Origin: Kofleriaceae bacterium
GTDB taxonomy: Bacteria > Myxococcota_A > Polyangia > Haliangiales > Haliangiaceae
Assembly: GCA_013368795.1 (NCBI GenBank)
Contig: JABFXX010000511.1
Location: forward strand, 1-53,945
Direction: 5' to 3'
Length of the DNA stretch: 53,945 bases
Part shown: in pieces, positions 25,234 through 26,620 of the stretch
How the letters are laid out: every line of letters begins with the position of its first letter
How positions within the stretch are numbered: the first letter of the stretch is position 1
Notes under the pieces: model-generated
Told to the model about the DNA's origin: nothing
Databases searched by the model: none
What the model saw: the letters and a program-made list of their open reading frames with translations, nothing else
Translations under genes and position numbers: made by a program

Positions 25234-25276
25234 ACGTGCACGTACGCGTGTCACGTGCACGTGCTCGTACACGATC
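25234..25276 (+). repeat. Left arm of 43-bp inverted repeat flanking the four-helix-bundle gene
   Basis: Bases 25234-25276 match the reverse complement of 25650-25692 at 37 of 43 positions by hand alignment, with the centre CGTGTCACGTGCAC identical. The arms bracket the gene at 25313 and would let the transcript fold into a long stem. The same right arm recurs at 26121-26163 after the tandem duplication. Confidence 0.8.
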
Positions 25277-25312
25277 CACGCAACCGCCCGCGGCCCGGTC
25301 GATACCGCCGGC

Positions 25313-25651
25313 ATGCTCGACTACGAAAAGCTGGACGTCTACAACTGCTCTATCGAACACCTGGCCTTCGTCTTCAAGGCGATGCCTCTCGTCCCTCGAG
25401 GATACTCGGCGCTCGTCGATCAATGGAGGCGAGCCGCCGTATCGGTGCCACTGAACATCGCTGAGGCCGTCGGCAAGACGAGTGAAGCAGATCGCCGCAA
25501 TCGCTACGCCATCGCACGTGGCGAGGCGATGGAATGCGGCGCGATCTTGGACGTGGTGAGACTCCTCGAGGTCGCGCCCGACGTCGAGCTGGCGCGAGCC
25601 AAGAACCTCATCGTTCGCATCGTGGGTATGCTCACGAAACTCTGTCAGTGA
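25313..25651 (+). CDS. Four-helix-bundle protein, 23S intervening-sequence (S23) type, copy 1
   Basis: This 112-residue protein starts with YEKLDVYNCSIEH. It continues with a VDQWRRAAVSVPLNIAEAVGK segment, SEADRRNRYAIARGEAMECGAI and ends in VGMLTKLCQ. These phrases (EKL at the start, a helix ending in NIAE, ARGS/ARGE-x-x-E-C) define the four-helix-bundle family first found inside intervening sequences of bacterial 23S rRNA. The proteins form pentamers and probably bind nucleic acid; no clear function is established. Here the gene lies outside rRNA and is bracketed by a 43-bp inverted repeat, the right arm starting within its stop codon. Confidence 0.85.
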   Translation: MLDYEKLDVYNCSIEHLAFVFKAMPLVPRGYSALVDQWRRAAVSVPLNIAEAVGKTSEADRRNRYAIARGEAMECGAILDVVRLLEVAPDVELARAKNLIVRIVGMLTKLCQ

Positions 25652-25692
25652 TCGTGCACGTGCAGGTGCACGTGACACGTGCACGGGCACGT
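25650..25692 (-). repeat. Right arm of the 43-bp inverted repeat (first copy)
   Basis: This is the partner of 25234-25276. It begins at the first base of overlap with the stop region of the four-helix-bundle gene and ends one base before the stop of the LEA-like gene fragment. An identical arm lies at 26121-26163, next to the stop of the intact LEA-like gene. Confidence 0.8.
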
Positions 25693-25693
25693 A

Positions 25694-25792
25694 TCACCGC
25701 AGGCCGATGCGTCCGTCGCCGAGCTGGCCGGCATGGGTGACGTCGACGTCGACCTGGCCGACGCGCGTCGCGAAGTGGAGGTGGACATCGAT
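25694..25792 (-). pseudogene. Duplicated 3' fragment of the LEA-like lipoprotein gene
   Basis: This stretch is identical to 26165-26263, the last 33 codons of the intact gene (IDVHLHFATRVGQVDVDV... to the stop). It has no promoter or start and was carried along in the tandem duplication. It separates the two four-helix-bundle copies and, read in the opposite direction, supplies an in-frame leader to copy 2. Confidence 0.85.
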
Positions 25793-26122
25793 CACGAGAA
25801 GCTGGACGTCTACAACTGCTCTATCGAACACCTGGCCTTCGTCTTCAAGGCGATGCCTCTCGTCCCTCGAGGATACTCGGCGCTCGTCGATCAATGGAGG
25901 CGAGCCGCCGTATCGGTGCCACTGAACATCGCTGAGGCCGTCGGCAAGACGAGTGAAGCAGATCGCCGCAATCGCTACGCCATCGCACGTGGCGAGGCGA
26001 TGGAATGCGGCGCGATCTTGGACGTGGTGAGACTCCTCGAGGTCGCGCCCGACGTCGAGCTGGCGCGAGCCAAGAACCTCATCGTTCGCATCGTGGGTAT
26101 GCTCACGAAACTCTGTCAGTGA
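25733..26122 (+). CDS. Four-helix-bundle protein, copy 2, with chimeric N-terminus
   Basis: From residue EKLDVYNCS onward this is identical to copy 1. Its original start codon was not copied. The frame instead continues upstream through the antisense of the LEA-gene fragment, giving a new N-terminus MGDVDVDLADARREVEVDID from the ATG at 25733 (129 residues). A GTG at 25679 would extend it to 147. Whether it is translated is unknown, since no good ribosome site is seen. If made, it should still fold as the four-helix bundle. It ends at a second copy of the right inverted-repeat arm. Confidence 0.6.
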   Translation: MGDVDVDLADARREVEVDIDHEKLDVYNCSIEHLAFVFKAMPLVPRGYSALVDQWRRAAVSVPLNIAEAVGKTSEADRRNRYAIARGEAMECGAILDVVRLLEVAPDVELARAKNLIVRIVGMLTKLCQ

Positions 26123-26164
26123 TCGTGCACGTGCAGGTGCACGTGACACGTGCACGGGCACGTA

Positions 26165-26620
26165 TCACCGCAGGCCGATGCGTCCGTCGCCGAGCTGGCC
26201 GGCATGGGTGACGTCGACGTCGACCTGGCCGACGCGCGTCGCGAAGTGGAGGTGGACATCGATGCGGTAGTCGCGCGCCCCGCTCGCCATCACCCGCGCC
26301 ACGCTCAGCGCGTCCATCGTGCCGATCGACAGCGACGTCGTCACCGGCGCGACGCCCTTCGCCGGAATCTCCTGCGAGAGCTGCACGGTCCCGGTGACCG
26401 CGCGCGTGTTGCCGATCGACAGCTGCCAGTCGATGCCGGACAGCGGCACGCCGAATCCGTTCGGGTTCATCACGTCGAGCGCCAGCTGGCCGCTGACACC
26501 GCCGAAGCCGGCCGACGTCATCGACACGTCGCGGACCTCCGCGGTCGGCTTCTCGATCGAGTGCATGAACAGCGAGCAGCCAGAGGTCGCGGCAAGGCAG
26601 GCGAGGGCGAGAACGCGCAT
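26165..26620 (-). CDS. LEA14/WHy-domain lipoprotein
   Basis: This 151-residue protein has a signal and lipobox (LAATSGCSLF). A domain with the LEA_2 (late-embryogenesis-abundant 14-like, WHy) pattern follows: RDVSMTSAGFGGVSGQLALDVMNPNGFGVPLSGIDW, then strands with GTVQLSQEIPAKG. The NPNxFGxPLxxxxW core is characteristic. In bacteria these proteins are envelope lipoproteins linked loosely to desiccation or envelope stress. The last 33 codons are duplicated 471 bp downstream. The stop lies one base from the right arm of the inverted repeat around the four-helix-bundle gene. Confidence 0.8.
   Translation of the reverse strand: MRVLALACLAATSGCSLFMHSIEKPTAEVRDVSMTSAGFGGVSGQLALDVMNPNGFGVPLSGIDWQLSIGNTRAVTGTVQLSQEIPAKGVAPVTTSLSIGTMDALSVARVMASGARDYRIDVHLHFATRVGQVDVDVTHAGQLGDGRIGLR

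Follow-up and report, generated by a model that had tools for sequence, protein, structure and literature searches.

Inverted six- or seven-nucleotide repeat arrays around a four-helix-bundle gene: probable small mobile DNA elements in several phyla, including a copy from a Kofleriaceae genome

Why should a gene of the kind known from intervening sequences (IVSs) of 23S rRNA, complete with a bracketing inverted repeat, stand among ordinary genes? The accessible text of a 2016 study describes the function and origin of IVS elements as still unclear, with transposition among several hypotheses (PMC4990558). The case considered here lies in the window, by which we mean the whole stretch of 53,945 nucleotides that was analysed, contig JABFXX010000511.1 of a Kofleriaceae bacterium. 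Its features, with strand where one was assigned, are these:

25234-25276, left inverted arm, an array of 6-nt units of ACGTGC type (arm alignment and Tandem Repeats Finder)
25313-25651, plus strand, IVP gene copy 1, 112 aa, four-helix bundle, PF05635 / TIGR02436 (profile matches)
25650-25692, right inverted arm copy 1, starting in the stop codon (arm alignment and Tandem Repeats Finder)
25317-25787, plus strand, tandem duplication unit 1 (self-comparison and Tandem Repeats Finder)
25693-25787, minus strand, duplicated piece of the LEA_2 gene 3' end (25697-25795 matches LEA residues 119-151 at 97%)
25788-26258, plus strand, tandem duplication unit 2, with a few base differences near its start (self-comparison and Tandem Repeats Finder)
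25787-26122, plus strand, IVP gene copy 2, open frame from 25679, PF05635 65.6 bits (profile match)
26121-26163, second right inverted arm, next to the stop codon of the intact LEA gene (arm alignment and Tandem Repeats Finder)
26165-26620, minus strand, LEA_2-domain gene, intact, its 3' end adjoining the element (profile match)

The first IVP copy matched PF05635 (23S_rRNA_IVP) at 66.7 bits against a cut-off of 33.8, and TIGR02436 at 63.9 against 24. Its two arms, 43 nt each and 373 nt apart, are complementary at 37 of 43 positions (86%) and give an alignment score of 56 with a unit period of 6; in the whole 54 kb, the only period-6 arrays that Tandem Repeats Finder reported at a score of at least 40 were the three arms. 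No rRNA or any other Rfam family matched in the window at gathering thresholds. The sequence-only reading of this DNA, which had described a free-standing IVS-like element with an IVS-type gene inside a 43-bp inverted repeat outside rRNA, is thereby borne out: terminal inverted repeats like those of a 23S rRNA IVS surround the gene, and its neighbour is a LEA_2 gene, not 23S rRNA sequence. That reading also had the right arm beginning in the stop codon and abutting the LEA stop. The TGA stop of the IVP gene (25649-25651) does contain the start of the arm; it is the second right arm that abuts the intact LEA gene, the first abutting a duplicated LEA fragment.

This fragment belongs to a feature that the sequence-only reading had missed. 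The 471-bp segment 25317-25787 is followed directly by a second copy of itself in the same orientation, 25788-26258 (99% identical), which accounts for the second IVP copy, the second right arm and the LEA end piece; the LEA fragment stands between the two IVP copies, of which only the first has its own left arm. Both this tandem duplication and the composition of the arms as 6- or 7-nt arrays are new here. The LEA protein has GLR at its C-terminal end, as does its counterpart in one congener (L066), which places the element just past the LEA stop codon, and since the duplicated unit includes LEA sequence, the duplication should postdate the insertion. The 471-bp repeat may alternatively be an assembly artefact, the genome being in 723 contigs. 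Another IVP locus of the same genome (L001, G000:C68) has its own gene end and arm repeated at a contig end (1434-1520 and 1901-1987, ~467 bp apart), an arrangement that resembles the window's duplication and could come from copies in tandem, from a small circle or from the assembly. The source genome holds five PF05635 matches, two of them the window copies. At L004 the IVP gene lies inside inverted arrays of a different hexamer, AAACGC, starting right after a stop codon, and the arms at L001 are of yet another, third type.

PF05635 matches occurred in 27 of 30 genomes of the family and in 127 of the 377 genomes of the phylum sample. The presence of arms was scored by aligning the 300 nt left of each gene to the reverse complement of the 300 nt on its right, a score of at least 36 counting as a pass, with windows shifted by 700-1100 nt as control. 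Both sets pooled, inverted arms were present at 105 of 159 IVP loci and in none of 614 shifted windows, so the arms accompany the gene in relatives, as the sequence-only reading had suggested checking. The first set (114 loci entered, 112 with flanks) left out L002, L006, L019, L028 and L030 of L001-L034 and the phylum loci L153, L171, L177 and L179, each being the same window copy or at a contig end; 68 of its 112 loci were armed, and the highest of 395 shifted scores was 34. The second, drawn from named genomes (Myxococcota, Desulfobacter, Acidobacteria, Planctomycetota, Chlamydiae, Hydrogenedentes, Gemmatimonadetes, Verrucomicrobia and others), took in 70 of 80 named loci, 62 with flanks and 47 of these not already in the first set; 51 of the 62 were armed, 37 of the 47, and no more than 35 was reached in 219 shifted windows. 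With none of these 395 and 219 controls at 36, the window's own pair, at 56, lies beyond chance.

A further 25 loci outside these counts, some of them copies with broken genes, were scored later, and 16 of 24 were armed, one having short flanks. Below the threshold, in all, fell 44 of 112, 10 of 47 and 8 of 24 loci. Plasmid loci were armed in 9 of 13 cases, 11 of the 13 being cyanobacterial; a plasmid search with the window protein as query gave no match. At L326, L327 and L334, IVP genes lie between cas6 and cas4 (on Anabaena and Pseudanabaena plasmids) or between cas10 and cmr3 (in Picosynechococcus), and in Synechocystis 7338 (L377) a Uma2 gene occupies the cas10/cmr3 junction. PF05635 genes often form inverted pairs 0.5-1 kb apart (G025:C57, G025:C7, G024:C22, G028:C16, G026:C132); the single such locus that was scored (L023, G028:C16) had no arms at threshold.

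The arms have a characteristic period. It could be read, at a lag identity of at least 0.6, in 70 of the 105 armed elements (period 6 in 53, 7 in 12, 12 in two and 14 in three), a level that 1 of 105 shuffled arm pairs passed. The other 35 showed no period above 0.6 and were too degenerate to read by the lag-identity rule, a few having best lags of 2, 3, 5, 8 or 10; the clearest exception to six and seven is the 8-nt arm period of L330, on a Gemmatirosa plasmid. Over all 159 loci, lag-6 arrays numbered 25.8 per kb within 250 nt of the gene versus 2.2 per kb beyond 450 nt (~12-fold), and lag-7 arrays 10.4 versus 0.12 per kb (~89-fold). Other lags (4, 5, 8-11) were also denser near the gene, at 1.7-2.8 versus ~0.1 per kb. 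Densities taken from armed loci only (23.2 versus 0.39 for lag 6, 10.6 versus 0.035 for lag 7) are biased by that selection and were set aside. By gene, arms and period, the window copy belongs to the class of IVP genes in inverted 6/7-nt arrays.

The sequence of the unit varies across elements and matches within an element: in 93 of the 105 armed elements, the best partner of the left arm was its own right arm. Arm sharing followed protein identity, with 31 of 33 pairs sharing arms at 75% identity or more (many of these being Baikal copies from one genome), 13 of 61 at 60-75% and 56 of 736 at 50-60%; in this last class the median cross-arm similarity was 0.30 of the own-arm score, compared with 0.21 for unrelated pairs. 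One element near a contig end (L082, G014:C71:1-1590) holds eight CGGAYT units, of which four other copies checked have one. A G-rich, telomere-like orientation of the arms was considered and dropped, the arms being C- or G-rich on either side by eye. Sorangium arrays are mixed variants of one heptamer. Heptamer array pairs, inverted by eye and some of them 130-270 bp apart, occur at five Sorangium loci (L357, L358, L362, L366, L368), none of which had an IVP match at E 0.01.

Relatives of the window element move as DNA, as target duplications, transposon ends and filled and empty sites show. Copies in congener G014 have common sharp ends outside the arms, CAATGC...GTTA, adjoining CTAG. The pattern CAATGCNNNTCNGTTA occurred 52 times in G005, 35 in G014, 15 in G001 and 0-4 in the other 13 genomes, its reversed control 0 or 1 times per genome. 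Exact 10-bp flanking duplications were found at 6 of 21 tip pairs (L073, L088, L091, L133, L137 and L156), the 21 including two elements counted twice and some chance pairings; the swapped-flank null gave 1 of 420 exact and 24 of 420 at eight or more matches. All six have a YTAR core, and L156 comes from another family of the phylum. L133 is only 107 bp long, nothing but ends and arrays, yet has its 10-bp duplication. In the window's own genome, an IS4-family transposase (NF033592, 261 bits) lies between ends of the IS4-like type; the flanks of this insertion sequence match at only 6 of 10 positions, so that no matching duplication is seen. The two genomes that hold most IS4-ended copies, G005 and G014, gave no PF13006 transposase in assemblies that are 86% and 59% complete. 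At three places (L382 2201-2212, L383 437-448, L385 110-121) an IS4-like right end is followed by 10 bp with YTAR and then a left end, which could be back-to-back elements or a circle junction.

A different end characterises the Baikal genome, where GGTGCTTNAC... occurs 404 times with at most two mismatches (control, 1). The eleven complete elements among the loci retrieved there have exact 9-bp flanks in six cases and at least eight matching positions in eight, against 0 of 110 in the null. The unit GTAGTC and its complement GACTAC are present in every one of the 11, and 10 have an IVP match, some of just 18 residues; L411, a 207-bp short copy that lacks most of the gene, still has a target duplication.

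On cyanobacterial plasmids, a site filled in one plasmid is empty in a close relative. The cleanest case compares Nostoc ATCC 53789 with C052; in Nostoc ATCC 53789 the element lies where two genes meet and has no IS4-type ends. Two ATCC 53789 plasmids carry different elements at neighbouring junctions of homologous operons (L332, L373). The comparisons vary in quality: L332/L372 and L373/L372 are clean, a few bases are altered in L334/L376 and L328/L378, and in L323/L369 ~50 nt are replaced; L326/L371 is messy and was not relied on. These plasmid insertions consist of arm, gene and arm, with no transposon ends seen. Sorangium So ce26 was rejected as an empty site for L249, since it lacks the element but ~390 bp alongside also differ, and the L274 site in So ceGT47 is occupied by other sequence. 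Three near-identical IVP copies in Oligoflexia Co_bin.49 (L261, L264, L270) have unrelated flanks and common sequence well past the arms.

The sequence-only reading had looked to other copies and empty sites, and had supposed that the locus may show how such sequences move. Other copies and empty sites do exist in relatives, the empty sites on cyanobacterial plasmids, so that for the class the outcome which would have refuted that reading did not arise; for the window copy itself no target duplication was detected. Where the reading had thought of excision or cutting as RNA, the evidence is for movement as DNA. A search with the LEA gene and the left-hand neighbour in 16 genomes of the genus, its own included, found no empty site for it; the left neighbour was not found at the five congener LEA loci compared (1.5 kb each side), so none can be read there. 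On the window copy, the best candidates for IS4-like terminal inverted repeats mismatched at 5 and 4 of 13 positions, a level that random stretches of the window also give. The copy could be an old insertion whose ends have been lost, or one of a kind that has none.

Unit length follows the protein. Each element was labelled by its lag-6 versus lag-7 identity where the two differed by over 0.1, a rule of this analysis. On a tree of 105 proteins, 93 labelled rows required three changes between six and seven, 12 unclear rows being set aside; with those 12 as a third state, six required 8 changes (28.1 when shuffled) and seven required 6 (19.2). We then reduced 101 labelled rows to 77 at ~70% identity, with plasmid rows added and unclear rows and L373 left out. 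In this thinned tree a clade with support 100/100 comprised 54 six-type and two seven-type rows, and all 21 counted rows outside it were seven, one further, uncounted row being eight. The 77 rows required two period changes, compared with a shuffled mean of ~20, and none of 500 shuffles was as low; the protein alignment has 109 columns and leaves many forks of the tree open.

Both periods occur together in two of the four genomes that were listed by hand, and each period goes with its own type of protein: in G077, L156 is seven and L219, L221 and L225 are six, and in G023, L013 is six and L034 seven. The host alone is therefore not the cause of the period. Nor do the ends set it, since IS4-like ends occur on seven-type (L155, L156) as well as six-type elements. 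Protein charge was uninformative (median pI 8.2 for six, 7.1 for seven, 7.7 for the window protein) and was dropped. From this distribution we infer that the protein sets unit length, the inheritance of existing arrays along with the gene being the main rival.

Between genomes, dN/dS of the protein was 0.06 to 0.35 in eight pairs, with dS near saturation in several; within genomes it was 0.43 to 3.4 in six recent pairs, values based on few changes. We read this pattern as a moving lineage under selection whose resident copies drift. A profile search of solved structures matched only 2gsc (XCC0516) and 2rld, with five chains each, which we take to indicate a pentamer.

Taken together, these observations make it probable, at roughly seven chances in ten, that the window copy belongs to a widespread type of small mobile DNA element, an IVP gene between inverted short-repeat arrays, found in several phyla; the part played by the protein at the arrays is the more conjectural component. 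In some lineages the elements would be non-autonomous transposons with insertion-sequence ends, IS4-like with a 10-bp duplication round YTAR or of another kind with 9 bp, and on cyanobacterial plasmids they would insert as arm-gene-arm, no such ends being seen. Each subunit of an IVP oligomer could engage one unit of the arrays, these being folded DNA or RNA, so that the span of a subunit would fix unit length and leave unit sequence free, and copying through hairpins might maintain the likeness of the arms. The protein may aid movement, or just the persistence of the element. Constant length with free sequence fits a footprint, and the eight-unit CGGAYT array of L082 fits duplication in steps of unit length. 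We put forward tentatively the fuller proposal that the subunits act as a ruler, spanning six nucleotides in one clade and otherwise seven, and driving the duplication of units of that length, whatever their sequence, as well as their mirroring through a hairpin.

The same constancy of length could arise with the protein having no say, if unit length were inherited with the gene and the sequence drifted, a change of every unit at once being rare. Close relatives do have similar arms, with gradual divergence as protein identity falls below 75%, and the Sorangium mixtures of heptamer variants look like such drift. Against this, at 50-60% identity arm similarity is near the unrelated level while unit length is kept, L082 bears a new 6-nt array of unrelated sequence, and clear periods besides six and seven are almost absent; we regard this account as rather unlikely, though a serious rival. 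That the arrays are host-wide simple-sequence repeats made by polymerase slippage, lying near IVP genes by chance, is highly improbable. Sorangium does have arrays that lack the gene, and the accessible text on the heptamer arrays common in Xanthomonas and Nostoc generally reports no mobile-element link (PMC4692102), but against this account stand the ~12-fold and ~89-fold enrichment beside IVP genes at 159 loci, the complete lack of arms in shifted windows, and the co-occurrence of the two periods in single genomes according to protein type.

Two further explanations accept the elements and assign the arms or the gene another role. The arms might act at the RNA level, as in the 23S IVS: paired within a host transcript, they would form a stem for RNase III to cut, so that insertion beside genes is tolerated. 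The window element has a predicted fold of -219.3 kcal/mol (z -4.9), elements lie by eye just after stop codons or between the genes of operons, and RNase III cuts IVS RNA according to the accessible part of PMC4990558. Transposon ends and target duplications show movement as DNA; the two readings are compatible, and we judge the RNA-level account unlikely as the explanation. The elements might also be no more than non-autonomous transposons (MITEs) that have subterminal repeats and carry the IVP gene as a passenger, its function being unrelated or one for the host. Ends and target duplications are what such elements would have, and the short copies L133 and L411 keep their duplications while lacking most of the gene. 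The same core of gene and arrays, however, occurs with two types of end and with none seen, and dN/dS between lineages is low; we judge a passenger gene unlikely.

Several known systems resemble the element class in part. REP/REPIN sequences with their RAYT proteins are dispersed palindromic repeats tied to one protein family; the present class differs in having a four-helix-bundle protein and in conserving the length of the unit, not its sequence. The Avd protein of diversity-generating retroelements is a small four-helix-bundle protein related to the IVP family, whereas our structure profile search matched just 2gsc and 2rld. In relatives of the window element, ends of the form CAATGCnnnTCnGTTA, a 10-bp duplication round YTAR and internally deleted copies recall IS4-family elements and their MITEs, and an IS4 transposase with such ends is present in the same genus. 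Unlike IS4-type MITEs, the class has a conserved gene for a four-helix bundle enclosed by inverted arrays; such ends are missing from the window copy and are of another kind in the Baikal elements. The heptamer arrays (GGGNATC) of Xanthomonas and Nostoc are alike by description, being 7-nt, mostly intergenic and, in Xanthomonas, often in inverted pairs, with 70 and 75 such pairs in two genomes; the accessible text of that paper names neither S23 nor a helix bundle (PMC4692102). For TAACTGA repeats, a repeat-binding protein has been suggested, in the part of the source available, as a possible mobile part (PMC4679880). A search confined largely to open-access literature, with subscription papers mostly outside it, found no report linking IVP genes with such arrays, or unit length with a protein clade. 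The link between period and clade offers a handle both on the role of a protein family and on the origin of short-repeat arrays. If the ruler proposal were true, the elements would form a new mobile class whose own protein builds them; it would also explain bacterial heptamer arrays and identify the source of rRNA IVSs. A further likeness is to the 23S rRNA IVS with its S23/IVP frame, in which a PF05635 gene lies within terminal inverted repeats and for which transposition has been proposed in the accessible text (PMC4990558). The window element differs in lying outside rRNA and in having arms that are 6/7-nt arrays, and its relatives have target duplications, transposon ends and empty sites; with such free-standing relatives at hand, the origin of IVSs is now a testable question.
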